Shown here one piece after another: positions 2,559 to 58,435 of a DNA stretch of 64,000 nt. The notes under the pieces are model-generated. The model was not told the DNA's origin. It worked only from the letters and a program-made list of their open reading frames with translations, and made no database searches. The stretch lies in NCBI RefSeq assembly GCF_013363995.1, contig NZ_JABWGO010000015.1, positions 62,001 through 126,000 on the forward strand, in the 5' to 3' direction. A program made the position numbers and the translations under genes. The stretch is from Nonomuraea rhodomycinica (GTDB lineage Bacteria; Actinomycetota; Actinomycetes; Streptosporangiales; Streptosporangiaceae). The first letter of the stretch is position 1. The number at the start of each line of letters is the position of its first letter.

Positions 2559-4763
2559 ATGGGCTCGCGTAACCGGTCAATTCGGTTCAAGATCTTCTTA
2601 TTGCTGCTACTACCCCTCCTATCTCTGAGCGCGTTGTGGGGGTTCGCCCTGAACCTCACGGTCGGTGATGGGCAGGCCCTCCTGCGGACCAACACCCTGT
2701 ACCAGACGGTCGGGGTCACCTCGACCGAGCTGGGCCTCCAGCTTCAGGCCGAACGCGCCCGCTCCGCCGTGGCCGTCACCACGCGTGAGCTCACCAAGGA
2801 CCTCGGTGCCCAGCGAGCCCGCACCGACAAGGCCGTCGCCGACTTCCGCCGCGCCGCCGTCGAGGCCGGCGACGCCGTCACCGCCGAGCTGCGCCGCCCC
2901 CTCGACACCCTCGACGGCGCGCTCGCCCGCCTCGGCTCCATCCGCGCCGACATCGACGCCGGCCTCAGCTCCCGCCTCGTGGGCATCAACGCCTACAACG
3001 CCGTCCTCGACGCCCTCTTCCGCTTCTACGACCACATGGTCTCCGTGCCCGACCTCCCGCTCTTCCAGCAGGCCACGGCCATGCAGGCGATGGGCAACGC
3101 CCGCGAGGTCATCGCCCGCGAGCACGCCCTGATCAGCGGCGCCCTGGTCGACGGGCAGCTCACCCAGCCCGAGGCCGCCGCGTTCACCGAGTACACCGCC
3201 ACCCGCACGTTCCTGCACTCCCGCGGCCTGGCCGGCCTCGACGTCGCGCTGCGCGGGCCGTACGAGAAGGTCTTCGACGGCGCCACCTTCCGCGACTTCG
3301 CCCGGATGGAGAAGCGGATCGTCACCACCGGCGAGCCGCCGCCCGACGGCGCCGCCTGGAACGCGGCCGTCGGCCAGGTGATGGCCCAGCTCGACCGGCT
3401 CGGCGTCTCCTCCTCCGAGGTGCTCTCCGACCGCGCCACCGGGGCGGCCACCGTCATCCTCGTCCGCATCGGCATCGCCGGCGTCGTCGGCCTGATCGCG
3501 GTCCTCGCCTCGATCGTCATCTCGGTGCGCCTCGGCCGCCGCCTGGGCGCCGAGCTGGCCGGGCTGCGCGCCGCCGCGGTCGAGCTGTCGGAGGAGCGGC
3601 TGCCCGCCCTGGTCGAGCGCCTGCGCCGCGGCGACGACGTGGACGCCGCGAAGGACGTCAAGCCGCTCAAGGTCAGCGGCTCCGCCGAGATCACCGACGT
3701 GGGCCGCGCGTTCGCCTCCGTCCAGTGCACCGCCGTACGGGCCGCCGTGGGGCAGGCCGAGCTGCGCCGCGGCGTGAGCCAGGTCTTCCTCAACCTCGCC
3801 CGGCGCAAGCAGGGCCTGCTGCACCGCCAGCTCGCGCTGCTCGACAGCATGCAGCGCCGCACCCACGACCCCGACCGCCTGGAAGAGCTCTTCCGCGTCG
3901 ACCACCTCACCACCCGCATGCGCCGCCACGCCGAGAGCCTCATCGTGCTGTCGGGGTCGGCTCCCGGGCGGGCCTGGCGCAAGCCGGTGTCCGTGCTCGA
4001 CATCGTGCGGGCCGCCGTCGCCGAGGTCGAGGAGTACACGCGGGTCACGGTGGAGTCCATGCCGGCCGGCGCCATCGACGGCGGCGTCGCGGCCGACCTC
4101 ACCCACCTGGTGGCCGAGCTGGTCGAGAACGCGACCCTGTACTCGCCGCCCGACACGCCGATCCACGTCCGCGGCGACCTGGTGAGCAACGGGTACGCGA
4201 TCGAGGTGGAGGACCGGGGACTCGGGCTCCCCCAGGCCGAGTACGCCGCGATCAACGCGCGGCTGGCCCGCCCTCCGGAGTTCGACCTCGCCGACAGCGA
4301 CCGGCTCGGCCTGTTCGTGGTCGGCAAGCTGGCCGAGCGGCACGGCATCCAGGTGATGCTGCGCCGCTCGCCGTTCGGCGGCACCACGGCGATCGTCCTG
4401 GTGCCGCGCTCGCTGGTCAGCGAGCAGACGGCGTTGACGGCCGGCGACGGCGACCGTGACACCGGCCGCGAGGCCGGCGAGGACACGGGCGGCGGCGCCG
4501 CCCGGAGCACCGCCTCCGGGCTGCCCAGCCGGACGAGGAAGAAGAAGGCCCTCGCCGTGGTGAGCGGCGGGACCCATGCCGGCCTGCCCACGCGGGTCCG
4601 GCAGGCGAACCTGGCACCCCAGCTTCGGGCGGACCCGACGCCCGAGCCGGAGCCGGAGCAGACGACGGAACGCTCTCCCGACGAGGTACGCGATCTGTTC
4701 TCCGCGTTCCAACGGGGAACCCAACGCGCCCGAGAAGAAGCAAAAGAGGAGGGGGAGGCATGA
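2559..4763 (+). CDS. cvnA: CvnA-type sensor kinase-like ATPase with nitrate/nitrite-sensing (NIT) domain
   Basis: A 734-residue membrane protein and first gene of a complete conservon. It has an N-terminal membrane segment (residues about 10-30), an extracellular NIT-like helical domain, and a second membrane segment at about 297-322. A HAMP-like linker and a C-terminal HATPase domain follow, with N-box LVENATLYSP, G1 box VEDRGLGLP and G2 region GLFVVGKLAERHG. The tail is low-complexity and charged. I start at MGSRNRSIRF because the same MxSxxRSIRFKI start occurs in the paralogue at 8827, and the in-frame upstream codons look like leader. It overlaps the next gene by ATGA. In the family, CvnA acts with CvnB, C and D as a membrane-associated, GPCR-like switch. 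Confidence 0.92.
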   Translation: MGSRNRSIRFKIFLLLLLPLLSLSALWGFALNLTVGDGQALLRTNTLYQTVGVTSTELGLQLQAERARSAVAVTTRELTKDLGAQRARTDKAVADFRRAAVEAGDAVTAELRRPLDTLDGALARLGSIRADIDAGLSSRLVGINAYNAVLDALFRFYDHMVSVPDLPLFQQATAMQAMGNAREVIAREHALISGALVDGQLTQPEAAAFTEYTATRTFLHSRGLAGLDVALRGPYEKVFDGATFRDFARMEKRIVTTGEPPPDGAAWNAAVGQVMAQLDRLGVSSSEVLSDRATGAATVILVRIGIAGVVGLIAVLASIVISVRLGRRLGAELAGLRAAAVELSEERLPALVERLRRGDDVDAAKDVKPLKVSGSAEITDVGRAFASVQCTAVRAAVGQAELRRGVSQVFLNLARRKQGLLHRQLALLDSMQRRTHDPDRLEELFRVDHLTTRMRRHAESLIVLSGSAPGRAWRKPVSVLDIVRAAVAEVEEYTRVTVESMPAGAIDGGVAADLTHLVAELVENATLYSPPDTPIHVRGDLVSNGYAIEVEDRGLGLPQAEYAAINARLARPPEFDLADSDRLGLFVVGKLAERHGIQVMLRRSPFGGTTAIVLVPRSLVSEQTALTAGDGDRDTGREAGEDTGGGAARSTASGLPSRTRKKKALAVVSGGTHAGLPTRVRQANLAPQLRADPTPEPEPEQTTERSPDEVRDLFSAFQRGTQRAREEAKEEGEA

Positions 4764-5167
4764 GCGCGCCCACGACCAACACCGGTGAGCTGAACTGGCT
4801 GCTCGACGACCTGACGACCAGGGTCGCGGCGGTCCGTCAGGCCGTGATCCTGTCGACCGACGGCCTGGCGGTGGGCTACTCCAAGGGGCTGACCCGCGAG
4901 GACGCCGAGCACCTGTCGGCCGTGGCGGCCGGGTTCCAGAGCCTCGCCCGCGGCACCGGACGCCACTTCGGCGGCGGCGACGTCCGCCAGACCATCGTGG
5001 AGATGGAGTCGGCGTTCCTGTTCGTGACCGCGGCCGGCCAGGGCACCTGCCTGGCCGTGCTGGCCGAGGCGAACGTCGACGTCGGTCACATCGCCTACGA
5101 GATGGCGATGCTGGTCAAGCGGGTGGGCCAGCACATCTCGACCAACCCGCGAAACACGGCGCCATGA
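4760..5167 (+). CDS. cvnB: Roadblock/LC7 domain protein, conservon CvnB
   Basis: A 135-residue single-domain Roadblock/LC7 protein (GELNWLLDDLTTRVAAVRQAVILSTDGLAVG), the family that modulates small GTPases such as the CvnD/MglA type. Its start codon overlaps the stop of cvnA (ATGA), and its own stop overlaps the start of cvnC, so translation is coupled through the operon. Family knowledge places it as a regulator of the CvnD GTPase on the membrane complex. Confidence 0.93.
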   Translation: MSAPTTNTGELNWLLDDLTTRVAAVRQAVILSTDGLAVGYSKGLTREDAEHLSAVAAGFQSLARGTGRHFGGGDVRQTIVEMESAFLFVTAAGQGTCLAVLAEANVDVGHIAYEMAMLVKRVGQHISTNPRNTAP

Positions 5168-5538
5168 CGGAGACCCCCCAGTGGCTGGACGACGCGGCGG
5201 GACCGGTCGTCCGGCCCTACGCGCTCATCCAGGGGAGGACGAGGTCGTCGGGAGACGCCTTCGACCTCGTCGCCACCGTGACCGTCGTCAGGGAGCCCTC
5301 CGGCGAGGCGGCGGGCGAGCTGGGGCCCGAGCAGCGGCTCATCCTGCGGGCGGCGCGCTCCCCGATCTCGGTCGCCGACGTGGCCGTCGAGCTGGACCTG
5401 CCCATCGGGGTCGTACGGGTGCTGCTGGGCGATCTGCGTGACAACGGCCTCATCTCTGTGACCTCTCCCTCAGCGGCTCGGCAGCGTTCGAACGAGGGCA
5501 TTCTCAAGGAAGTGATCAATGGACTCCGGGCTCTCTGA
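5164..5538 (+). CDS. cvnC: DUF742 protein, conservon CvnC
   Basis: A 124-residue DUF742 protein. It shows the signature opening WLDDAAGPVVRPYALIQGRT, a central winged-helix-like segment (LPIGVVRVLLGDLRDNGLISV) and the family ending VINGLRAL. It overlaps cvnB by four bases and its last 20 bases overlap the start of cvnD. A second DUF742 gene with the same start and end signatures lies at 6144-6518 on the other strand. Its biochemical role within conservons is not established. Confidence 0.93.
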   Translation: MTETPQWLDDAAGPVVRPYALIQGRTRSSGDAFDLVATVTVVREPSGEAAGELGPEQRLILRAARSPISVADVAVELDLPIGVVRVLLGDLRDNGLISVTSPSAARQRSNEGILKEVINGLRAL

Positions 5539-6091
5539 CGACCCCGTGGCGCTGAAGATCCTCGTCGCGGGGGGCTTCGGCGTCGGCAAGACCACCCTCG
5601 TGGGCGCCATCAGCGAGATCAAGCCGCTGCGCACGGAGGAGGTGCTGTCGGAGCGCGGGATCGGCGTGGACGACATCGACGGCGTGGAGGCCAAGACCAC
5701 CACCACCGTCGCCATGGACTTCGGCCGCATCACCATCCGCGACGGGCTGGTCGTCTACCTGTTCGGGACGCCGGGGCAGGAGCGGTTCTGGTTCATGTGG
5801 GACGAGCTGTCCTACGGCGCGCTCGGGGCCGTGGTCATCGCCGACACCCGGCGGCTGACCGACTGCTTCCCGTCCGTGGACTACTTCGAGCAGCGCGGCA
5901 CGCCGTTCGTGGTGGCCGTCAACTGCTTCGACGGCGCCGAGCGGCACAGCGTGGACGACGTGCGGATCGCGCTCGACCTGGACCCGGACGTACCGGTGCT
6001 GCTGTGCGACGTACGGCGGCGCAGCTCCGCCAAGGAGGTCATGGTCACGCTGGTGGAGCACTCCCTGCGGACCCTGACCGCGGCGGGCTGA
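5519..6091 (+). CDS. cvnD: Conservon GTPase CvnD (MglA-like small GTP-binding protein)
   Basis: A 190-residue Ras-like GTPase. The P-loop is GGFGVGKTT near residue 20. A switch region TTTTVAMDFGRI and the DxxG-equivalent LFGTPGQERF follow; the last is the Gly-Thr-Pro-Gly-Gln form typical of CvnD proteins. The base-recognition motif is VNCFD, in place of NKxD. It is the last gene of the complete A-B-C-D conservon. A convergent, shortened conservon begins only 52 bp past its stop codon. Confidence 0.93.
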   Translation: MDSGLSDDPVALKILVAGGFGVGKTTLVGAISEIKPLRTEEVLSERGIGVDDIDGVEAKTTTTVAMDFGRITIRDGLVVYLFGTPGQERFWFMWDELSYGALGAVVIADTRRLTDCFPSVDYFEQRGTPFVVAVNCFDGAERHSVDDVRIALDLDPDVPVLLCDVRRRSSAKEVMVTLVEHSLRTLTAAG

Positions 6092-6143: not shown

Positions 6144-6518
6144 CTACAGCGCCCGCAGGCCGTTGATGACCTCTCTCAGCAGGTTCTCCGTCGCGCCCGT
6201 GCCCTTCGCGAGCGGCGGACGCACCGAGACCAGCCCGTAGTGCAGCAGGTCGCCCAGGAGCACCCGCACCACCCCGACGGGGAGCTGCAGCTCCGCGGCG
6301 AGCTCCACCACCGGCCTGGCCTGCGCGGCCACGGTGGCGATCAGCCGCCGGTGCTGCGCGCTCAGCTCCGCCTTGGCCGGCACCGGCAGGCCGCTGGCCA
6401 CCACCGTCGCCAGCAGGTCGATCTCGGGCGCGGAGGACCTGGTGCGTCCACGGGCGACCGCGTACGGCCGCACCACCGGCCCGGCCTCCTCGTCCACCCA
6501 CTCGGGCTCGCGGCTCAC
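6144..6518 (-). CDS. DUF742 protein of a second, incomplete conservon
   Basis: A 124-residue DUF742 protein (EPEWVDEEAGPVVRPYAVARGRT at the N-terminus, REVINGLRAL at the end), the same length as the CvnC homologue at 5164. The start is a GTG whose TG is shared with the TGA stop of the upstream kinase (GTGA overlap at 6515-6518), so the two are translationally coupled. No Roadblock gene lies between kinase and DUF742, and no CvnD GTPase follows. Downstream lies only a 52-bp gap and then the 3' end of the other conservon. Confidence 0.92.
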   Translation of the reverse strand: MSREPEWVDEEAGPVVRPYAVARGRTRSSAPEIDLLATVVASGLPVPAKAELSAQHRRLIATVAAQARPVVELAAELQLPVGVVRVLLGDLLHYGLVSVRPPLAKGTGATENLLREVINGLRAL

Positions 6519-8827
6519 GACTGAGTTCCCCCATCCTGGTCGCTGTCCTGGCGCCCGCGCCGCCAGCCCGACTGGAGGGAGGACAGCAGGGCCCTGGCCT
6601 CCTCGGGCGAGCGCTCCTCGACGGACTTGGCGGGCTGGTGCTGCGTCTGGGTCCTGGAGGGCAGGCCGGCCCCCTGCCGGCCGCTCGGGGCTGACGCTCC
6701 GGCCCCCTGCTGCTGGAGCTGGGGCGGCAGGTTGGTCTGCCGCACGCGGCGGGGCAGCCCGGGCCCGGCGTCCGGCTGCGACTGCGCCTGCTGCGTCTGG
6801 GGCGCCTGGGCGCGGCGGGACGTGCGGACCCGGCGCGGCAGCCCGCCCGGCCCGGTGGCGCCTTCCAGGGAGAGGGCGGGCCCCTCGGGGCCGTCGGCGT
6901 CCTGCCGGACCACCGACACCGACACCGGCTCGAACACCGGCATGTCCAGCGGCGGCGGCAGCATCTCCACCAGCATCGAGGGGATGAGCACGATCGCCGT
7001 GGTCCCGCCGTAGGGCGACGGCTTGAGCGTCACCGAGATGCCGTGCCGGTTGGCCAGCAGGCCGACCACCGCGAAGCCGAGCTGCTCGGTCTGCGACGGG
7101 TCGAAGTCGGGCGGGGCCGCCAGGCGCAGGTTGATCGCGTCGCGCTGCTCCGGCGACATGCCGAGGCCGCGGTCCTCCACCTCGACCGCGAAGCCGCGGC
7201 CGACCATCTCGCCGCGCACCGACACCTCGTTGCCGGGCGAGGAGAACGAGGTGGCGTTCTCGATCAGCTCGGCGAACAGGTGCATGAGGTCGGCCACCGC
7301 CGAGCCGGAGAAGCCGCACTCGGGCATCGGGTAGACGCGGACCCGGGTGTACTCCTCGACCTGGGCCGCGGCGCCGTTCAGCACGTCCTCGACCGGGATG
7401 GTGCCGCGCCAGCGGCGTCCGGCCGAGCCGCCCGACAGCAGCACCAGGCCCTCCGCGTGGCGGCGCATGCGGGTGGTGAGGTGGTCGAGCCTGAACAGCC
7501 GCTCCAGCGCCTCCGGCTCCTCGGTCTGGCGCTGCATGTCGTCGAGCAGCCTGAGCTGGCGCTGGAGCAGCGTCTGGCTGCGCCGGGCCAGGTTGCGCAG
7601 CGCCTCGGAGACGCCCTGGCGGAGCCTGGCCTGCTCGACGGCCGCGTCCACGGCGGTGCGCTGGACGCTGTCGAAGGCCGCCGCGAGGTCCCGGACCTCG
7701 CTCGTGGTCTGGTCGGCCACGGTGATGGGCGGCGCTTCGGCGTCGACGTCCACGCTGTCGCCCCTGCGCAGCCGGGTCACCACGTCGGGCAGCTTGATCT
7801 CGGCCAGGTCCAGGGCGCTGCGGCGCAGGGCGCCGAGGTCGTGGGCGATGCGCCGGCCGGCCCGGATGGACACGACGACGGAGAAGATGACCGCGAGCAG
7901 CCCGAGCGCGCCCGCGATGCCGGCGCGGACGATGATCGTGATGCCGGCCGGCTCGATCCGGGCGAGCAGCGCGTCACCGGTGCGCCAGACGGCCTCGGTG
8001 TAGTCCTTCAGCACCGGGTCGGCCAGCTCGCGCCACATCTGCATGTTGACGGGCTCGCCCATGATGTACGAGTCGAGGGCCCGCTCCATCGTGGCGAAGC
8101 GGGAGGAGGTCGCCACCTTCTGCACCCGGGCGCGCAGCTCGGGGTCCATGTTGGCCATGGCCGACGGGAGGAGGTTCTGCCGGGCGCCGTCGATGCGGGC
8201 CAGCAGGTGCAGGTCGGTCATGCTCGGCTTGCCGTCGGCGGCCACGATGAGCGCGTGCTCGCGGCTGAGCAGCTCGCGCACCTCGTCGGCGGCGATCAGG
8301 CCGTGACTCTGCCGGGCCAGGTCCACGTCGGTGCTCACCGTGAACGTGGAGTACATGATGTGGACGATGTCGGAGATCTCGGAGTACTGCTGGATCAGCG
8401 ACGAGGGGGTCATCTTGCCGGCGTCGACCTGCCGGCGCACCTCCGGCAGCCGCTCGATCGCCTCGAAGGCGCTCTTCAGCCGGTCGCGCATCTCCTGCGT
8501 CATGGCCGACTGGGTGCTCGGCGTCGTGCCGTTCTCGACCAGCTTGGCGCGGACCCGGTCCACCTTGACCCGGGCGTCGGTCAGCGCGGCGGGGTCGGTG
8601 GCGGTGCCCGCGAGCCGCTCGGCGGAGGCCAGGCGCTCCTGCTGGAGGTTGCCGACCATGCCGTCGGCGTAGTTGATGACGTTCGTCCAGATGGTCTGGG
8701 CCTTGAGCAGGTTGACGGCCTCGCCGATGGTGGTGGCGGCGGCGAAGGCCCAGAGCGCGACGAGAGAGACCAGGGGGATGACGAGCAGTGTCGAGATCTT
8801 GAATCTGATGGATCTGCCCGATGCCAT
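6515..8827 (-). CDS. CvnA-type NIT-domain sensor kinase-like ATPase (second conservon)
   Basis: A 770-residue paralogue of the protein at 2559. The start MASGRSIRFKISTLL follows a GGGAGCAGG ribosome site, and its RSIRFKI segment matches the paralogue. It has an N-terminal membrane helix, a NIT-like sensor region, a second membrane helix (IIVRAGIAGALGLLAVIFSVVVSI), a HAMP-like linker, and a HATPase domain (LIENATSFSSPGN, VEDRGLGMS, GFAVVGLLANRHGI). A long Gln/Pro/Ser-rich tail ends the protein. It is followed directly by a DUF742 gene with no cvnB between them. Codon use matches its neighbours, so it looks native rather than recently acquired. Confidence 0.92.
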   Translation of the reverse strand: MASGRSIRFKISTLLVIPLVSLVALWAFAAATTIGEAVNLLKAQTIWTNVINYADGMVGNLQQERLASAERLAGTATDPAALTDARVKVDRVRAKLVENGTTPSTQSAMTQEMRDRLKSAFEAIERLPEVRRQVDAGKMTPSSLIQQYSEISDIVHIMYSTFTVSTDVDLARQSHGLIAADEVRELLSREHALIVAADGKPSMTDLHLLARIDGARQNLLPSAMANMDPELRARVQKVATSSRFATMERALDSYIMGEPVNMQMWRELADPVLKDYTEAVWRTGDALLARIEPAGITIIVRAGIAGALGLLAVIFSVVVSIRAGRRIAHDLGALRRSALDLAEIKLPDVVTRLRRGDSVDVDAEAPPITVADQTTSEVRDLAAAFDSVQRTAVDAAVEQARLRQGVSEALRNLARRSQTLLQRQLRLLDDMQRQTEEPEALERLFRLDHLTTRMRRHAEGLVLLSGGSAGRRWRGTIPVEDVLNGAAAQVEEYTRVRVYPMPECGFSGSAVADLMHLFAELIENATSFSSPGNEVSVRGEMVGRGFAVEVEDRGLGMSPEQRDAINLRLAAPPDFDPSQTEQLGFAVVGLLANRHGISVTLKPSPYGGTTAIVLIPSMLVEMLPPPLDMPVFEPVSVSVVRQDADGPEGPALSLEGATGPGGLPRRVRTSRRAQAPQTQQAQSQPDAGPGLPRRVRQTNLPPQLQQQGAGASAPSGRQGAGLPSRTQTQHQPAKSVEERSPEEARALLSSLQSGWRRGRQDSDQDGGTQS

Positions 8828-47626: not shown

Positions 47627-48562
47627 GCTGTCTTCCTCGAGTGATGGCTCGCCGAAGTCATCGCGCCCAATCGCGAGCCCACGACCTACGTGGCGTACGA
47701 ACCCCTCATCCGGCTGTACATCATCCCCGGAGTGGGGAAGAAGCGGCTGGCCAAGCTCACAGTCCGCGACGTGCAGGCCTGGTTGAACACCCTGCCGACT
47801 CTATCGCCGGCGTCCGTCGAGTCCTGCGGTCAGCGCTCGGCCATGCCCTACGGGAAGAACTGGCCACGAAGAACGTCGCCTCATTGACCACCCTTCCGAG
47901 CGCCAGCAAGACCAACAAGAAGCGGCAGCATGGGGTGTGGAGCGTCGATGAGGCGCGCAGGTTCCTTGAACACCTCCGGGAGGCCGACGACCCGCTCTAC
48001 GCGGCGTATGTGCTCATTCTCGTTCTGGGCCTTCGTCGCGGAGAGGTCCTCGGCCTCACATGGAGCTGCGTGGACTTCCCCAGTGCCCAGCTCGCATTTC
48101 CCATCAACTCACCAGAGTCAGCGGTCGGCTCCTCCACCGGGAGACGACCAAGACAGAGGACTCAACCGCCTCGCTGCCGCTCTTCGGCATCTGCGTCGCG
48201 GCGCTCAGGCACCATCGCGAGTTCAGGAGGAGGCGCGCAAAGTGGCCGGTGAGGAGTGGAAGAACTCGGACCTGACGTTCACGACTCGGACGGGCACGCC
48301 GATCGAGCCGCGGAACTTCAACCGGGCTTTCGAGAGCCACTGCCACCAAGCCGGCGTCCCGCGCATCCGCGTTCACGACACCCGGCACACCTGCGCCTCG
48401 CTCTTGGCTGCCCTCGACGTCCATCCGCGCGTGGCGATGCGTATCATGCGCCACTCGCAGATCTCGATGGCCATGGACGTCTACACCCAGATTCCCACTC
48501 CCGAAACCCGCAAGGCGCTCGACCGGCTGAACCAGAGCCTCGATCGCCCCAGCGATGTGTGA
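47627..48562 (+). pseudogene. int: Tyrosine recombinase/integrase, broken by a stop and frameshifts
   Basis: The SAM-like N-domain reads WLAEVIAPNREPTTYVAYEP, then IRLYIIPGVGKKRLAKLTVRDVQAWLNTL, after an in-frame TGA near 47640. Frame changes occur near 47800-47830 and again near 48070-48150. The catalytic domain is recognisable: LVLGLRRGEVLGLTW (first Arg region), RVHDTRHTCASLLA (HxxRH) and RHSQISMAMDVYTQ (second His and Tyr). These are the residues of a tyrosine integrase of the actinomycete ICE/phage type. It points toward tRNA-Arg at 49688, its likely target. Inactive as it stands. Confidence 0.85.
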
Positions 48563-49678: not shown

Positions 49679-49687
49679 GACCTGAAG

Positions 49688-49760
49688 CGCGGCCGAGAGG
49701 ACTCGAACCCCTAACCTTCTGATCCGTAGTCAGATGCTCTATCCATTGAGCTACGGCCGC
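49688..49760 (-). tRNA. tRNA-Arg (anticodon ACG)
   Basis: A 73-base cloverleaf on the minus strand. The acceptor stem is GCGGCCG/CGGCCGC, the D-arm GCTC...GAGC, the anticodon stem TCTGA/TCAGA with loop CTACGGA (anticodon ACG), and the T-arm AGGGG-TTCGAGT-CCTCT. CCA is not encoded. Its 3' end faces the decayed accessory region to the left and matches the degenerate copy at 45807. Confidence 0.95.
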
Positions 49761-52026: not shown

Positions 52027-52656
52027 ATGGCCATCCGGGTGGTGGTCGCTGATGACCATGCGGCGGTACGGGCGGGGATCGCGCTGATCCTGGGCGGCGC
52101 CGACGACATCGAGGTGGTGGGAGAGGCCGCCGACGGGGAGGAGGCCGTGGCGCTCGCGCGGGAGAAGCGGCCGGACGTCGTGTTGATGGATGTGCGCATG
52201 CCGCGGCTGGACGGGATCTCGGCCACCCGGGAGCTGGCCGGGGTGGCGGATGTATTGATCTTGACGACGTTCGACGTGGACGAGTACGTGTTCGGGGCGC
52301 TTCGTGCTGGAGCGGCGGGGTTCTTGCTGAAGAACACCGACGCCGAGAGCTTGGTGGAGGCGGTTCGGGTGGTGGCGCGGGGGGACGGGCTCATCTCGCC
52401 GGCTGTCACCCGGCGGTTGATCTCGGCTTTCGCGGAGATGCCTCCGCCCCGTGATCGGCAGGCCGTGGCCGGGCTGACGCCTCGGGAGCGGGAGGTGCTG
52501 GCCTGCGTGGCTCGGGGGCTGTCCAACGCGGAGATCGCCAAGGAGCTCGACATGGCGGAGGCGACGACGAAGACACATGTGAGCAGGGTGCTCGGCAAGC
52601 TGGGGTTGAAGAGCCGGGTGCAGGCTGCGATCTACTACTCGGCGTACGAGGAGTAG
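52027..52656 (+). CDS. LuxR/NarL family response regulator
   Basis: A 209-residue response regulator. The receiver domain has the acidic pair VVADDHAAVR, phospho-acceptor Asp in VVLMDVRMPRLDG, Thr in LILTTFD and Lys in GFLLKNT. The C-terminal LuxR HTH is LTPREREVLACVARGLSNAEIAKELDMAEATTKTHVSRVLGKLGLKSR in form. The start MAIRVVV follows GGTGAGGTG. It is the cognate partner of the kinase at 50488; the inverted repeat at 50415 is a possible target. Confidence 0.93.
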   Translation: MAIRVVVADDHAAVRAGIALILGGADDIEVVGEAADGEEAVALAREKRPDVVLMDVRMPRLDGISATRELAGVADVLILTTFDVDEYVFGALRAGAAGFLLKNTDAESLVEAVRVVARGDGLISPAVTRRLISAFAEMPPPRDRQAVAGLTPREREVLACVARGLSNAEIAKELDMAEATTKTHVSRVLGKLGLKSRVQAAIYYSAYEE

Positions 52657-53062
52657 CGCGCCGACGCTCTCACCGGTCGAGGCGGACTGGTGGGGTTTCC
52701 GGCCGGTTTCGCTTTTGGGTCGGCCATGCCGTCGGAAAGCGCCTGGCATGCCGTCAGGCGATACCGCCGTCCCACGCCGCTCGCCACCGGCTGGGCGATA
52801 CCGCCGCTCCATCGCTCCACGCCGCTCGCCACCGGCTGGGCGATCCAGCCCGCCGCCCCGCGGCCCCACGCCGCCCGCCACCCCGTCAGGTGATCCCGGC
52901 GCGTCGTTCGAGGTCGCCTGTTTCAAGTCGCCTGTTCCCATCGGTTACGCCGTGACCGCCCGTTCCGGCCCATTCGGGAAGTGAGCGGTCGGTGTCCTTC
53001 GGCCGTGGGGCATCGTCCCCCGGGCCTACTCTCCGTCGGTGGCGGCCCGTAGGCTGGCCGTC
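52657..53062. repeat. Gene-free region with a 28-bp direct repeat
   Basis: Copies of a 28-bp unit (beginning CCACGCCGCTCGCCACCGGC) lie at 52772-52799 and 52817-52844, as part of a 45-bp periodicity. GCGATACCGCCG also recurs. No convincing gene is present in the 406 bp. Confidence 0.7.
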
Positions 53063-53395
53063 GTGAGTTCTCCGCCGCCTGTCTCCCCCGGGCCGTCCGG
53101 TCAACCGCCTCGCCAGACCGGTCTCGTGGTGGGGCTGGCGTTCGCGGGAGCCTTCGGCTACTGGGTCGTCAACGTGCTCCTGGGGCTGATCGTGATCAGG
53201 TTCGACTCTCGGGTCGCGGTCGGGGTGGGGGCGGCGGTGCTGGCTCTCGGGGCGTTGGGCGGCGGGGTTCTGCTGGTGTCGCGGCGCAAGCCCTGGGCCC
53301 TCGGTCTGGGATTGGGGTTGATGATCGGGTGGGCGTTGGCCTCCATCGTGACCGCCGGATTCTGTACCGGGCTCAATCCGAATCTCTACGCCTGA
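53063..53395 (+). CDS. Small three-helix membrane protein, probably leaderless
   Basis: A 110-residue protein starting at GTG 53063. TAGGCT lies 7 bases upstream and no ribosome site is visible. After a Pro-rich N-terminus it has three membrane helices (LVVGLAFAGAFGYWVVNVLLGLIVI, AVGVGAAVLALGALGGGVLLV, LGLGLGLMIGWALASIVTAGF) and ends FCTGLNPNLYA. The last 60 residues are paralogous to the next protein (LGLGLMLGWALWSIVSAGFCTGINPGMYG). Confidence 0.75.
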   Translation: MSSPPPVSPGPSGQPPRQTGLVVGLAFAGAFGYWVVNVLLGLIVIRFDSRVAVGVGAAVLALGALGGGVLLVSRRKPWALGLGLGLMIGWALASIVTAGFCTGLNPNLYA

Positions 53396-53437
53396 TGGGC
53401 GGCCATCCGGTCGCGGTCGGCACGGCGCGGTGCGCGG

Positions 53438-53953
53438 ATGAGTGAGTCGCCGCCCCCGCCGCCTCGCGGGCCGCAGTCTCACGGGCCGCAGCCTCGCGGG
53501 CCGCAGCCTCGCGGGCCGCAGTCTCACGGGCCGCAGCCCCACGGGCCCACACCACATGGGCCTCAGCGCCACGGGCAGCCACCACAGCCGCCGCAGCCGC
53601 CCCAGCCCCCGCCGCACGGCTACTGGGCGCCGCCGCCGAAGCCGCCGCGTGACAGCTCCCCCGCCCTCCTCATAGGCATGGCCTTCGCCGGCCTCGCCCT
53701 CTACAGCGCGCTGAACTTCCTGCTGGTCCTCGTCGTCCTCTTCGCCGCCATGGACAAGGGCGGCAACCAGCTGTGGACCGCCATCGCCGCCGTCGTCCTC
53801 GCGCTCGTGGGCCTGGGCGCCGGCGCCGGGCTGCTGGTCCTGCGGCGGCCGTGGGCGACCGGGCTGGGGCTCGGGTTGATGCTCGGGTGGGCGTTGTGGT
53901 CGATCGTGTCGGCCGGTTTCTGCACGGGCATCAATCCGGGAATGTACGGCTGA
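53438..53953 (+). CDS. Pro/His-rich small membrane protein, paralogue of the 53063 gene
   Basis: A 171-residue protein. Residues 5-65 are a repetitive Pro-Gln-Gly-His tract (units GPQPRGPQ, GPQPHGP). Three membrane helices follow that match the preceding protein and end FCTGINPGMYG. The gene stops one base before the Lgt-like gene, so it belongs to the same transcript. The His-rich tract could bind metal; this is speculative. Confidence 0.75.
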   Translation: MSESPPPPPRGPQSHGPQPRGPQPRGPQSHGPQPHGPTPHGPQRHGQPPQPPQPPQPPPHGYWAPPPKPPRDSSPALLIGMAFAGLALYSALNFLLVLVVLFAAMDKGGNQLWTAIAAVVLALVGLGAGAGLLVLRRPWATGLGLGLMLGWALWSIVSAGFCTGINPGMYG

Positions 53954-53954
53954 C

Positions 53955-54698
53955 ATGGCCATACCACTGCATGAGGTGTTCGTCGGGCTCGGCGTTCTCG
54001 TCGCGTCCGTCGTGTTCGTACGGGAGGCTCGCCGCCGTGGCGCGCTCAACGAGCAGTCGCTCGTGGCCGTCACCGGCGCGCTCGTCGGCGGCGCCATCGG
54101 CATGCGCCTGGCCGGCTGGATGGAGACGCTCGACCTGAAGGACCTCTGGCTGTACGGGTCCCGCAGCATCCTGGGCGGCCTGACCGGGGCGTACGTCGGC
54201 GTGCTGGTCGCCAAGCGGGTCATCGGCCTCCGGGAGCGCACCGGCGACCTGTTCGCCCCGGCCGTGGCGCTGGGCATGGCCGTCGGGCGCGTCGGCTGCC
54301 ACCTGACCGAGGCCCCGGGGCGGCCCACCGACCTGCCGTGGGGCGTCCACGCGCCGCCGACCACGCCCGAGTGCCCCGGCTGCCTGACCGGTCAGGCCAT
54401 GCACCCGTCGTTCATCTACGAGATCATCTTCCATCTCGTCGCGTACGGGGCGCTGGTGTGGGCGCGGGACAAGGTGACGCGGCCGGGCGAGCTGTTCACG
54501 CTCTACCTGGCCGGGTACGCGGCGTTCCGGTTCCTCGTCGAGTTCACGCGGGCGAACGAGACCGTGTGGCTGGGGCTGACGCGCCCGCAGTGGTTCCTCG
54601 TCCCGGGGACGATCCTGCTGGCCGTACGCGTCGGGTACGGCTGGCGGCGCGGCCACTACGATGCACTTCTCCGACGGAAGGCGACAGTTCGGTCATGA
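53955..54698 (+). CDS. Lgt-family membrane protein (prolipoprotein diacylglyceryl transferase-like)
   Basis: A 247-residue protein with about seven membrane helices. Several Lgt landmarks are present: AVGRVGCHLTEAPGRPTDLPWG (Arg of the GRxGN motif kept, Asn changed to His), HPSFIYEIIFHL, and YAAFRFLVEFTRAN (the essential second Arg). The Lgt loop that normally reads FHGG is SRSILGG here, so the catalytic His is missing. It is therefore probably not the housekeeping lipoprotein enzyme. Start and stop are tightly packed: one base after the upstream gene, and ATGA overlap with the radical SAM gene. A lipid-transfer or lipid-modification role is inferred. Confidence 0.82.
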   Translation: MAIPLHEVFVGLGVLVASVVFVREARRRGALNEQSLVAVTGALVGGAIGMRLAGWMETLDLKDLWLYGSRSILGGLTGAYVGVLVAKRVIGLRERTGDLFAPAVALGMAVGRVGCHLTEAPGRPTDLPWGVHAPPTTPECPGCLTGQAMHPSFIYEIIFHLVAYGALVWARDKVTRPGELFTLYLAGYAAFRFLVEFTRANETVWLGLTRPQWFLVPGTILLAVRVGYGWRRGHYDALLRRKATVRS

Positions 54699-56248
54699 GC
54701 CCAGGAATGGGACTGCGGGGCGACCGCATCCTCAGGTACGTCAACGCGTTCTGCCCGCACTGCCACGGCCGCGACCTGGAACACGTCGAGCGGCTCAGCG
54801 GCTACCTGGCGGTGCGCGACGGCCGGGTGTGGCTGGAGCGCGGGTGCCGCGAGCACGGCCTGGTCCGGACGCTCTACGACGAGGACCCGGAGATCCTGGA
54901 GTACCTGGAGGAGTGGACCGCTCCCACCAAGCAGCACATCCCGGACGTGTCGGGCAACTTCGCGCCCGTCCCCGCCGCGTACCTCCAGGGGCTGCCGGAG
55001 ATGCAGACGCAGCACACGTGCATCCTGCTGGAGGACATCGCCGAGGCGTGCAACCTGCGCTGCCCGACCTGCTTCGCCGACAGCTCGCCCGACCTGAGCG
55101 GGATCGTCCCGGTCGCCGACGTCCTCGCGAACGTCGACCAGCGCCTGGCCCGCGAGAACGGCCGGCTGGACGTGCTCATGCTGAGCGGCGGCGAGCCGAC
55201 GCTGCACCCGGAGCTCCCGCTGCTGCTGCGCGAGCTCACGCAGCGGCCGGTCACCCGCATCCTGATCAACACCAACGGCGTCCTCGTCGCCCGCGACGAC
55301 GACCTGCTCGACCTGCTCACCGAGCACCGCGAGCGGGTGGAGGTCTACCTCCAGTACGACGGCGGCTCGGCCGAGGCGTCGCGACACCACCGGGGCGGCG
55401 ACCTGCGGCGGCTCAAGGAGCAGGCCGTACGGCGGCTGTCGGAGCGGGAGATCTTCACCACGCTGGTGATGACGGCGGCGCTCGGCGTCAACGACGGCGA
55501 GATCGGCGACGTCGTACGGGTGGCGCTCGACACGCCGTTCGTGGGCGGCGTGTCGCTGCAGCCGCAGTTCGGCTCGGGCCGCTCGGCGCGGATCGACCCG
55601 ATGGACCGGCTCACCCACACCGGCGTGCTCAGCCGGCTCGGACCGCAGACCGGCGGGCTGGTCACCTGGCGCGACCTGACCGCGCTGCCGTGCTCCCACC
55701 CCCACTGCTGCTCGGTCGGCTACCTGATCCGCGACGACTCGCGGCGGTGGCGGTCGCTGGTGGCGCTGATGGGCCACGACCGGCTGAAGGCGAACCTGGG
55801 CCTGGTCGCCAACCGGATCGCCGACAGCGACATCCCGCGCGAGCTGCGGGCGGCCGTACAGGAGTCGCTGCTGGGGCTGCTGTCGGAGCAGTCGTCGCTG
55901 TCGCACCCGCAGATCGGCGACCTGTGGCGCGACATCTGCGAGAACTGCGACCTCGGCGTGTCCACGCTGCTCACACTCGCCTCCTCGGCGCTGCCGGGCC
56001 GGCGCGCGAAGCTGCGCCGGATGCTGGGCGAGCGGGTGGTCCGGATCACGGTCAAGCCGTTCATGGACATCTCGACGATGATCGAGGAACGGCTCACGCA
56101 GTGCTGCGTCCATGTGGGCACGCGGGCCGAGCAGGACCAGTGCGCGCCGTTCTGCGCGGTGCAGGCGTGGCCGCAGCTCTCGGCGCAGCGGCTGTCGGCG
56201 GTGGCGTCGGAGCCCCGGACGCGGCTTCCTCTGGAGGTCCTGACGTGA
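54695..56248 (+). CDS. Cys-rich radical SAM protein resembling MJ0619/tetraether-lipid-synthase (Tes) family
   Basis: A 517-residue radical SAM enzyme. An N-terminal CPHC (Cys20, Cys23) with Cys51 looks like a rubredoxin or auxiliary-site motif. The radical SAM cluster motif CNLRCPTCFADSS has Cys119, Cys123 and Cys126. MLSGGEPTLHPEL is the SAM-binding GGE motif. The C-terminal part has ALPCSHPHCCSVGYL, then VKPFMDISTMIEERLTQCC and CAPFCAVQAW, a block typical of the MJ0619/Tes-type family that also carries extra clusters. In archaea Tes joins lipid tails; other members act as methyltransferases. Here the flanking Lgt-like and membrane proteins favour a lipid substrate. It overlaps both neighbours. 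Confidence 0.82.
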   Translation: MSPGMGLRGDRILRYVNAFCPHCHGRDLEHVERLSGYLAVRDGRVWLERGCREHGLVRTLYDEDPEILEYLEEWTAPTKQHIPDVSGNFAPVPAAYLQGLPEMQTQHTCILLEDIAEACNLRCPTCFADSSPDLSGIVPVADVLANVDQRLARENGRLDVLMLSGGEPTLHPELPLLLRELTQRPVTRILINTNGVLVARDDDLLDLLTEHRERVEVYLQYDGGSAEASRHHRGGDLRRLKEQAVRRLSEREIFTTLVMTAALGVNDGEIGDVVRVALDTPFVGGVSLQPQFGSGRSARIDPMDRLTHTGVLSRLGPQTGGLVTWRDLTALPCSHPHCCSVGYLIRDDSRRWRSLVALMGHDRLKANLGLVANRIADSDIPRELRAAVQESLLGLLSEQSSLSHPQIGDLWRDICENCDLGVSTLLTLASSALPGRRAKLRRMLGERVVRITVKPFMDISTMIEERLTQCCVHVGTRAEQDQCAPFCAVQAWPQLSAQRLSAVASEPRTRLPLEVLT

Positions 56249-56490
56249 AGGCCGAGCCGTACGACCCGCTGCGGCTGTGCGTGTACGCGACGGTCGCGCT
56301 GCTGGCGTGGCTGCTGGGGCCGTGGGCGGTGCTCGGGTTCGCCGTACTGGGGTTCGCGGGGTACTGGAAGGCGCGCCGGGCCGGGCTGACCCGCAGCAAG
56401 TGCCTGCTGCGGGACACCCGGCTCGTGCTGGCCTACCTGGGGCTGCTGGCGGTGGCGGCGTCCGTCGCGATCGTGCTGTCCCTCAGGTGA
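56245..56490 (+). CDS. Small two-helix membrane protein of the radical SAM operon
   Basis: An 81-residue protein starting at a GTG that overlaps the radical SAM stop (GTGA) with GGAGG eight bases upstream. It has two to three membrane helices (LRLCVYATVALLAWLLGPWAVLGFAVLGFAGYW, LVLAYLGLLAVAASVAIVLSL) joined by a basic loop RRAGLTRSKCLLRDT. The coupling implies it works with the radical SAM and Lgt-like proteins, perhaps as a membrane anchor. Family unknown. Confidence 0.75.
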   Translation: MKAEPYDPLRLCVYATVALLAWLLGPWAVLGFAVLGFAGYWKARRAGLTRSKCLLRDTRLVLAYLGLLAVAASVAIVLSLR

Positions 56491-56499
56491 CGGCGGGGG

Positions 56500-56958
56500 C
56501 TACTCGGCGGGGACGTACAGGCTGAGCGTCTCGGCGATGCAGGCCGGACGCCGCTCGCCCTCGACCTCGATCGTCATCTTCAGGTTGGACAGGTAGCCGG
56601 CGGGCGTGCCCTTGACGTCGGTCAGCTCGCCCGAGGCCCTGACCCGCGCGCCCACCGGCACCGGCCGCGGGAAGCGGACCTTGTTCAGGCCGTAGTTGAC
56701 GCCCATGGCGATGCCCTCGACCTTGACCAGCTCCATCATGAACGACGGAAGCAGCGACAGGCTGAGGTAGCCGTGGGCGATGGTGCCGCCGAACGGTCCC
56801 TCCTTGGCGCGCTCCACGTCGACGTGGATCCACTGGTGGTCGTCGGTGGCGTCGGCGAACAGGTTGACCTGCTCCTGGGTGATCGTGCGCCACTCGGTCG
56901 GGCCGAACGTCTCGCCGACGGCCGACTTGAGCTCCTGTACGTTCGCGAAGGTCCGCAT
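56500..56958 (-). CDS. MaoC-like hydratase (hot-dog fold)
   Basis: A 152-residue MaoC dehydratase-domain protein. Key stretch: ITQEQVNLFADATDDHQWIHVDVERAKEGPFGGTIAHGYLSLSL, which contains the hydratase motif Asp-x4-His. It would hydrate enoyl-CoA esters. TAGCGT a few bases before the ATG without ribosome site suggests a leaderless message. It converges, ten bases away, on the small membrane protein gene of the radical SAM operon. Confidence 0.9.
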   Translation of the reverse strand: MRTFANVQELKSAVGETFGPTEWRTITQEQVNLFADATDDHQWIHVDVERAKEGPFGGTIAHGYLSLSLLPSFMMELVKVEGIAMGVNYGLNKVRFPRPVPVGARVRASGELTDVKGTPAGYLSNLKMTIEVEGERRPACIAETLSLYVPAE

Positions 56959-57253
56959 GGGCCTGAACGCTATTGCGCTGGCGGGACGGCTGCCAAGTCG
57001 AGCCGCCGGTACGGGCGGAACGCCCGGCTCGCCCCCGGGCGGCGGATCTGTTGCGAAGATCTTTACTCGAAAGCGTCGCATGGGTGTTCGAGTCCGCGCT
57101 ACAGTTCTGGGTGTCGAATCGAACATGGGTTCGGCCAGGTGAGAGGGGGTGTGTTCGATGACGGCGACGGCGACGGCCCGCGCTCGGACACGCCGTACGG
57201 CTTTCTGCGCAAATCTACGACGGCCGCTATATCCGGCAATAAAGTCCGAGAGC

Positions 57254-58435
57254 GTGGACCCTGTGCGCAATCCCTACGCCCCCGGAGCCGGGCAGCGTCC
57301 CCCCGAGCTCGCCGGCCGTGACCGTGAGCTCCAGCAGTTCGAGGTCGTGCTGGAGCGGGTGGCCCGTGGCCGGCCCGAGCGCAGCATGGTCGTCACCGGG
57401 CTGCGGGGCGTGGGCAAGACCGTCCTGCTCAACACCTTCAAGTCCATGGCGATGCAGCGGCTGTGGGGCACGGGCAAGATCGAGGCCCGGCCCGACCAGT
57501 CGATCCGCCGTCCCGTCGCCGCCGCCCTGCACATGGCGGTCCGCGAGCTGGCCCCGCGGCACCGCGCGCCCGAGCGCATCGAGGACTTCCTCGGCGTGCT
57601 CAAGGCGTTCGCGATGCGCGACCCGGCCGCGGCCAAGGGCACCTCCCACTGGTCGCCCGGCATCGAGGTGCCGGCCAGCCGGGGCCGCGCCGACTCCGGC
57701 GACCTGGAGATCGACCTGACCGAGCTGTTCGTCGACGCGGCGAGCGTGGCCACCGACCTCGGGGTCGGCATCGCGCTGTTCATCGACGAGATGCAGGACG
57801 TGCCGGCGGCCGACGTCTCGGCGCTGTGCGCCGCCTGCCACGAGCTGTCGCAGTCGGGCGGGCCGCTCATCGTGGTCGGCGCCGGGCTGCCACACCTGCC
57901 GAGCGTGCTGTCGGCCAGCAAGAGCTACTCCGAGCGGCTGTTCCGCTACGCCCGCATCGACCGGCTCGACCGCGAGGCCGCCGACCTGGCGCTGATCCTG
58001 CCGGCCCGCGAGGAGGACGTCGAGTTCACCCAGGACGCCCTCGACGCGCTCTACGAGGCGGCCGACGGCTACCCCTACTTCGTCCAGGCGTACGGCAAGG
58101 TGGCCTGGGACCTCGCGCCGCGCAGCCCCATCACGGTGGAGGACGTGCGGGTGTCGGCCCCCGAGGCCGAGGAGGAGCTCGCGGTCGGCTTCTTCGGCAG
58201 CCGTTACGAGCGGGCGACCCCGGCCGAGCGCGACTACATGCACGCCATGGCGCAGATCGGCGACGAGCCGGTCGCCACCGCCGAGGTCGCCGACGCCCTC
58301 GGCCGCAAGCCGTCCAGCCTGTCGCCGGCGCGCGACAGCCTCATCAAGAAGGGCCTGATCTACAGCGCCGAGCGTGGGCTGATCGCGTTCACCGTGCCGC
58401 ATTTCGGGAGGTTCCTGCGGGCCCAGCCGATCTGA
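57254..58435 (+). CDS. AAA family ATP-binding protein (Orc1/STAND-like)
   Basis: A 393-residue soluble ATPase. The start region VDPVRNPYAPGAGQRPPELAGRDREL precedes Walker A GLRGVGKTVLL and Walker B GIALFIDEMQD. A sensor region VVGAGLPHLPSVLS follows, and then a C-terminal winged-helix-like part (EVADALGRKPSSLSPARDSLIKKGLIY). This layout is typical of a conserved actinobacterial ATP-binding protein family related to archaeal Orc1/Cdc6-type ATPases. I use the GTG at 57254; the GTG at 57263 is possible. No operon partner. It is followed by a perfect 18-bp hairpin. Confidence 0.88.
   Translation: MDPVRNPYAPGAGQRPPELAGRDRELQQFEVVLERVARGRPERSMVVTGLRGVGKTVLLNTFKSMAMQRLWGTGKIEARPDQSIRRPVAAALHMAVRELAPRHRAPERIEDFLGVLKAFAMRDPAAAKGTSHWSPGIEVPASRGRADSGDLEIDLTELFVDAASVATDLGVGIALFIDEMQDVPAADVSALCAACHELSQSGGPLIVVGAGLPHLPSVLSASKSYSERLFRYARIDRLDREAADLALILPAREEDVEFTQDALDALYEAADGYPYFVQAYGKVAWDLAPRSPITVEDVRVSAPEAEEELAVGFFGSRYERATPAERDYMHAMAQIGDEPVATAEVADALGRKPSSLSPARDSLIKKGLIYSAERGLIAFTVPHFGRFLRAQPI

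Follow-up and report, generated by a model that had tools for sequence, protein, structure and literature searches.

A 64,000-nucleotide stretch of the Nonomuraea rhodomycinica genome (9.61 Mb; contig NZ_JABWGO010000015.1, positions 62,001 to 126,000; hereafter the window) carries a gene cassette in which a radical S-adenosylmethionine (SAM) enzyme of the Tes group and an Lgt-fold protein are co-inherited as a pair. A lipid is the probable substrate of this cassette, and with slightly less confidence we read the cassette as a membrane-associated module that would modify glycerolipids by radical chemistry. Its product would then probably be an undescribed modified membrane lipid. The makers of membrane-spanning and other unusual lipids in bacteria are poorly known, and the cassette offers a test case that is compact and occurs in culturable genera, with a Tes-group enzyme genetically locked to a partner of lipid-binding type.

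A co-inherited radical SAM and Lgt-like gene pair

The cassette genes lie on the forward strand of the window. A small membrane protein with a Pro-rich N-terminus followed by hydrophobic helices (SMP1, 53438..53953) is separated by a one-base gap from the Lgt-like membrane protein (53955..54698), whose gene overlaps that of the radical SAM enzyme (54695..56248, with a possible alternative start at 54707) through ATGA at 54695-54698. The radical SAM gene in turn overlaps that of a further small membrane protein (SMP4, 56245..56490) through GTGA at 56245-56248. The first-pass annotation had described these four genes as a coupled operon, and its coordinates and junctions all hold on re-reading. 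The operon is nonetheless longer than it had stated, as a fifth gene, SMP0 (53039..53395, perhaps with a GTG start at 53063), lies 42 bp upstream of SMP1 and encodes a paralog of it (51% identity over residues 56-170). A search of the host genome found SMP0 and SMP1 to be the only clear copies, with a third weak match confined to the Pro-rich part. A scan of 52600-57300 for promoters and terminators, by a method suited to sigma-70 only, gave no match.

A scan of named genomes turned up 313 proteins related to the radical SAM enzyme, and the neighborhoods of the best 80 of these 313 loci were compared using a simple gene caller that gives approximate starts and misses some genes. The 80 loci are spread over Actinomycetota, Gemmatimonadota, Chloroflexota, Acidobacteriota and Rhodothermota. 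Calls above threshold were obtained for the two core genes in 73 of them (the other 7 lack one or both calls), and the Lgt-like gene lies directly upstream of the radical SAM gene on the same strand in every one of the 73. The first-pass annotation had proposed a comparison of gene order across genomes as a check; the order is conserved across phyla.

Sampling within taxa points the same way. Cassette-type radical SAM proteins (at least 79% identity) are encoded by 34 of 150 genomes of the same order, split in two pieces in one of them, and cassette-type Lgt-like proteins (at least 361 bits, the next match scoring 116) by exactly the same 34. Nine further radical SAM matches in this sample, at 30-32% identity, are of another kind. 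The cassette enzyme is also present in the genus of M. brisbanense (51 of 198 genomes, with one copy split; five more genomes have the other kind only), in 2 of 150 Gemmatimonadota and 4 of 151 Chloroflexota, both samples being centered on a known carrier, and in 6 of 296 Actinomycetota including the host genome (at least 60% identity), plus one fragment. Nonomuraea, Microbispora, Dactylosporangium and Nocardia are among the carrier genera. Among the best 12 matches, the closest relatives of the window enzyme are Nonomuraea loci (89-91%), and window DNA aligns with Nonomuraea contigs at 82-87%. Nonomuraea lactucae carries the cassette region on two scaffolds (L168 and L169) with the same match figures, either a duplication or an assembly artefact.

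The Lgt-like protein and the small membrane proteins

The Lgt-like protein exceeds the Pfam cut-off for PF01790 (106.9 bits against 24.9) and falls short of that for the equivalog TIGR00544 (73.8 bits against 118.9). A plain Foldseek search with its predicted model returned no match at E<=0.001, while a second fold search ranked Lgt (5AZB) first and assigned the model an Lgt fold. Six residues are absolutely required in Escherichia coli Lgt: Y26, H103, R143, N146, G154 and R239. R143, G154 and R239 are intact in 77 of 77 cassette Lgt-like proteins, the H103 position is Leu in 73 and the N146 position Cys in all 77, and the Y26 position probably reads His. The network of the phosphatidylglycerol site (R143/R239/E243/R246) is retained. 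A divergent member of the Lgt family, as first annotated, is thus what the family scores, fold and altered residues describe.

The H103 and N146 positions vary in other Lgts as well. Among nine comparison loci with other Lgts, the five usable ones have Trp, Phe or Leu at the H103 position and never His, and the available part of PMC13251419 gives Trp for Actinobacteria. Loss of activity through the H103-to-Leu change alone was therefore rejected, and we call the protein altered rather than dead. All nine genomes searched contain another Lgt-family gene besides the cassette copy, so housekeeping lipidation is covered.

A second Lgt that is spared housekeeping duties could serve a special form of lipoprotein lipidation, in which the radical SAM enzyme would modify phosphatidylglycerol, or a lipid already bound to protein, in its acyl or glycerol part and the Lgt-like protein would attach the resulting anchor to a subset of lipoproteins or to the membrane proteins of the cassette. 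Such a role would fit the retained fold and phosphatidylglycerol-site residues and the inseparability of the two genes in the order sample. It fits less well with the changes at positions that E. coli Lgt requires, even if two of these vary elsewhere, and no lipobox was seen by eye in the small proteins of the window. On balance we consider this explanation unlikely.

The small membrane proteins are less constant than the core pair. SMP4 has two cysteines, C12 and C53, that are invariant across 13 aligned rows. It is found in 31 of the 34 cassette genomes of the order and in none of the other 116, and in 58 of the 80 fetched loci (51 by BLAST label and 7 by hidden Markov model); the 22 loci in which it was not found include some short ones. 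An open frame was called between the core genes in 44 of 73 loci, each with a hydrophobic segment, and the protein at this position is unlike between phyla. The window differs, as do loci of the same genus such as L078 and L081, in that the small protein precedes the Lgt-like gene; SMP1 itself has no Pfam match above cut-off. Being variable and dispensable, the small proteins look like membrane anchors. The two small membrane proteins of the first-pass annotation are accordingly present in the window, but across phyla these proteins are not alike, and some lineages lack the last one.

A Chloroflexota locus (L262:4749-7654) encodes four consecutive membrane-type proteins between its two core genes, and these proteins have in common an N-terminal motif of about YLREHGxxYTxxxLRxQLIxAGH. 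By eye, the equivalent protein in L098, L103, L106 and L261 opens with a similar start.

The conserved cysteines of SMP4, its confinement to cassette genomes in the order sample and the usual presence of small membrane proteins nearby would suit a protein or peptide maturation system, with the radical SAM enzyme modifying a small membrane protein and the Lgt-like protein lipidating the product. The profile of AlbA, a maturase of ribosomally synthesized and post-translationally modified peptides (RiPPs), also gives weak scores with 4 of 9 radical SAM orthologs. Against this, SMP4 is missing from 3 of 34 cassette genomes and was not seen in 22 of the 80 fetched loci, some of which are short; the other small protein is dissimilar between phyla, and RiPP maturases align to only part of the radical SAM model in fold searches. 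Peptide maturation is thus quite improbable.

The radical SAM enzyme and its neighborhood

The radical SAM protein has full-length homology to MJ0619, with about 23% identity, and the same fold. The motifs noted in the first-pass annotation are present as described: CNLRCPTCFA contains the radical SAM cluster motif (C119xxxC123xxC126, codons 55049..55072), the N-terminal CPHC (C20-P-H-C23, codons 54752..54763) makes up half of a rubredoxin-type site completed by C51 and H54, and KPFMD...QCC...PFC contains presumed cysteines of a C-terminal auxiliary cluster (C470-C471 and C487, codons 56102..56155, together with C338). We compared residues in an alignment of 56 proteins, 24 of them from the cassette, using the ligands listed in the available part of PMC9433317. 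All four ligands of the rubredoxin-type site (C9, C12, C33 and H36 in MJ0619 numbering) are found in MJ0619 and in 24 of 24 cassette proteins, and the CxxxCxxC motif is likewise intact in all 24. Cysteines at MJ0619 positions C338 (24/24), C455 (24/24) and C470 (23/24) would, judging from this conservation, be the ligands of the C-terminal cluster; in the numbering of the window enzyme, C338 and C470 are present in 24 and C487 in 23 of the 24.

The deepest members of the family come from two Chloroflexota loci (L261 and L262), which have 46% identity to the window enzyme and the same gene order and ligand pattern. Upstream, at a distance of 28-37 bp and in the same orientation, both encode a fusion of an AMP-binding domain of fatty-acyl ligase type, an acyl-carrier domain and a PF01553 acyltransferase. 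This architecture is that of acyl-ACP--phospholipid acyltransferases, though with NCBIfam scores well below cut-off.

Phylogenetic analysis with IQ-TREE (56 rows) placed the 24 cassette proteins on one side of a branch with 100/100 support. The stem of this clade is long (2.79 changes per site) and its members differ little though they come from five named phyla, which suggests that the cassette spread horizontally. Where the clade joins the tree is less sure than its unity: IQ-TREE gave a long-branch warning for two TrsS-like rows and for cassette rows meeting others, and the clade persisted (support 0.998) in a FastTree analysis from which the two longest rows were dropped and to which the deep Chloroflexota pair was added. 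MJ0619 is the sole archaeal Tes among the rows. 'TrsS-like' is a loose label of ours and not a profile assignment; the two such rows that were scored reach 329-335 bits with the TrsS profile and 314-330 bits with the Tes profile, all below cut-off, and the tree therefore contains no TrsS proper.

Several observations weigh against a lipid-modifying role or bear on the distance of the enzyme from Tes. The best-scoring NCBIfam profile for the window enzyme is TrsS (NF045646, 193.3 bits; cut-off 490), ahead of Tes (NF045702, 141.5 bits; cut-off 450). All nine orthologs tested give NF045702 matches with E values of 1e-10 or lower (152.8 bits for the one score printed), and one ortholog with a printed TrsS score reaches 205 bits. 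In the tree, the cassette clade lies with TrsS-like rows rather than with MJ0619 or the Tes and Tes-like proteins of Acidobacteriota. The ligands of the N-terminal [Fe4S4] cluster (C73, C77, C80 and H83 in MJ0619) are found in 0 of 24 cassette proteins, and Met439 and Tyr459 are replaced by Lys and Val in all 24. The predicted model of the enzyme has low confidence (mean predicted local distance difference test score, pLDDT, 62). The acyltransferase neighbor is limited to one lineage and counts as one observation rather than two, because the radical SAM proteins of L261 and L262 are 96% identical. Finally, inspection by eye of the printed neighborhoods revealed no lipid gene as a neighbor common to several phyla; recurrent neighbors look lineage-specific.

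Some of these points can be qualified. Loss of the N-terminal cluster is not peculiar to the cassette clade, since C73, C77 and C80 are also lacking in all six acidobacterial Tes-like proteins. L261, L262 and L263 lack these cysteines as well, and of the three only L263 has His at position 83. According to the available part of PMC9433317, Met439 and Tyr459 are completely conserved across 1,000 archaeal homologs and an M439A variant is still active. The first-pass assignment to the Tes/MJ0619 group is thus right for the type of enzyme, which is nevertheless not a Tes, given its scores below cut-off, its separate clade and the residues it lacks.

The first-pass annotation had also asked whether a family with a known, unrelated role would be the best match. 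TrsS ranks first, and no established function for it was found in the open-license literature searched. A role like that of TrsS, with no connection to membrane lipids, would be in keeping with this ranking and with the tree, but the score is under half of the TrsS cut-off and the gene context differs. In TrsS-like loci the next gene is methyltransferase-like in 10 of 11 printed cases (4 of 4 Pfam-tested), a neighbor that we take to be a TrsS trait, and none of the 11 has an Lgt gene beside the radical SAM gene; for the cassette, inspection of the printed neighborhoods by eye revealed no methyltransferase between or directly beside its genes. With C73, C77 and C80 moreover present in 14, 15 and 14 of 15 TrsS-like rows, such a role is very unlikely.

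A number of related loci deserve separate mention. Five relatives were flagged for one TGA inside the gene; four were checked and have an ordinary stop near the C-terminus, and selenocysteine was rejected for these. In L068-L070, L072-L074 and L089-L092, an actinobacterial radical SAM protein that the profiles place about midway between TrsS and Tes lies beside a class I methyltransferase, and for two of these methyltransferases the best NCBIfam match is the DVU_1556 family, just below cut-off. One Blastocatellia genome (G445, C141 and C64) encodes a separate Tes-like protein in addition to the cassette enzyme; with the Tes profile the former scores 326 bits and the latter 151. A common acidobacterial Tes-like subfamily (L230-L235), at about 320 bits and below the Tes cut-off, has Met439 and Tyr459 in 6 of 6 proteins. 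One cassette radical SAM protein (L065:8002-9846, G162) has a low-complexity repeat of about 70 residues inserted in frame shortly after its HPHCC motif, and in L088 (G362) and G823 the gene is split into two pieces that overlap in different frames, probably broken or mis-sequenced.

Elsewhere in the window, a tRNA-Arg (acg) gene at 49687-49760 has 1.1 kb away a short open frame (48242-48562) that matches the last part of Phage_integrase (PF00589, 45 bits); the two may be what is left of an integrated element. Pfam matches at 2634-6091 indicate a conservon-like set (NIT-domain sensor kinase, Roadblock, DUF742 and GTPase-type genes), and by eye the other strand at 6144-8827 resembles part of a second one.

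A proposed lipid-modifying function and related systems

We favor a lipid substrate because of the homology to Tes, the Lgt-type phosphatidylglycerol-site residues and the acyl-ligase/acyltransferase fusion that abuts the cassette in one deep lineage. The simplest substrate common to the two core proteins would be a phosphatidylglycerol-type lipid. In the mechanism that we propose, the Lgt-like protein would bind phosphatidylglycerol or its diacylglyceryl part through the retained network and would either present the lipid or hand over the diacylglyceryl group, once modified, to something other than the cysteine of an ordinary lipobox. The small proteins would hold the radical SAM enzyme at the membrane, where 5'-deoxyadenosyl radicals would activate an acyl-chain carbon. 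As in GDGT-MAS, the activated carbon could be parked as a C-S bond on the C-terminal cluster, before it is joined to a second chain through C-C bond formation or the chain undergoes another radical modification.

Coupling of acyl chains is chemically possible in that the C-S-storing cluster of GDGT-MAS looks preserved, and sulfur insertion, cyclization or another chain modification are possible outcomes given the distance of the enzyme from Tes. The membrane-lipid modification put forward in the first-pass annotation therefore survives in its choice of substrate, while the tail cross-linking that it named is unsupported as stated: this reaction stays conjectural because the enzyme is not a Tes, and we hold tail-to-tail coupling specifically to be doubtful. 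A fuller scenario is a little more doubtful still: a horizontally spread cassette that makes an undescribed class of radical-coupled glycerolipid, tail-joined or sulfur-bridged, in ordinary soil bacteria of aerobic habit, where a repurposed Lgt-type transferase loads or unloads diacylglyceryl, possibly onto protein as a membrane-spanning or special anchor. If a new lipid is made, the known radical SAM chemistry of aerobes would be widened, and a function would be gained for an Lgt paralog otherwise annotated as a lipoprotein enzyme.

In a search of the open-license literature, no paper was found that brings together Lgt, a radical SAM enzyme and tetraethers. Mss is another proposed or reported bacterial enzyme of tail coupling. 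For bacterial Tes homologs, members of the same superfamily, the available parts of PMC8941075 and PMC11868695 propose tail coupling, with the activity in bacteria unconfirmed. The acidobacterial proteins group with MJ0619 and away from the cassette clade.

Compared with Lgt (phosphatidylglycerol:prolipoprotein diacylglyceryl transferase), the cassette protein is distinguished by being encoded in addition to another Lgt-family gene and by its tie to a radical SAM gene. MSMEG_5408, the second Lgt homolog of Mycobacterium smegmatis, is presumably the cassette gene itself, judging from its residues and its locus numbering. The available part of PMC13251419 reports Y26H and N146C for this protein, the same substitutions as read in the cassette proteins, and makes no mention of a radical SAM neighbor.

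TrsS, a family of radical SAM (seleno)proteins, resembles the cassette enzyme in profile score. Six extra cysteines (C109, C333, C415, C418, C471 and C483) occur in 23-24 of 24 cassette proteins, and TrsS-like rows have several of these (C109, C333, C415, C418 and C471) in common with them. The cassette enzyme differs in falling far below the TrsS cut-off, in lacking the N-terminal cluster of TrsS-like rows, in showing no selenocysteine and in having an Lgt homolog rather than a methyltransferase as its partner.

Tes/GDGT-MAS (MJ0619; PDB 7TOL/7TOM) and the cassette enzyme are alike in fold, in the rubredoxin-type C-C-C-H site, in the radical SAM motif and in the putative cysteine ligands of the C-terminal cluster. 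They are set apart by the separate clade, the missing N-terminal [Fe4S4] ligands, the Lys and Val in place of Met439 and Tyr459 and the extra cysteines. The setting presumably differs as well, as we take the cassette-bearing actinomycetes to be aerobes, and in contrast to Tes/GDGT-MAS the cassette enzyme has a fixed Lgt-like partner gene.

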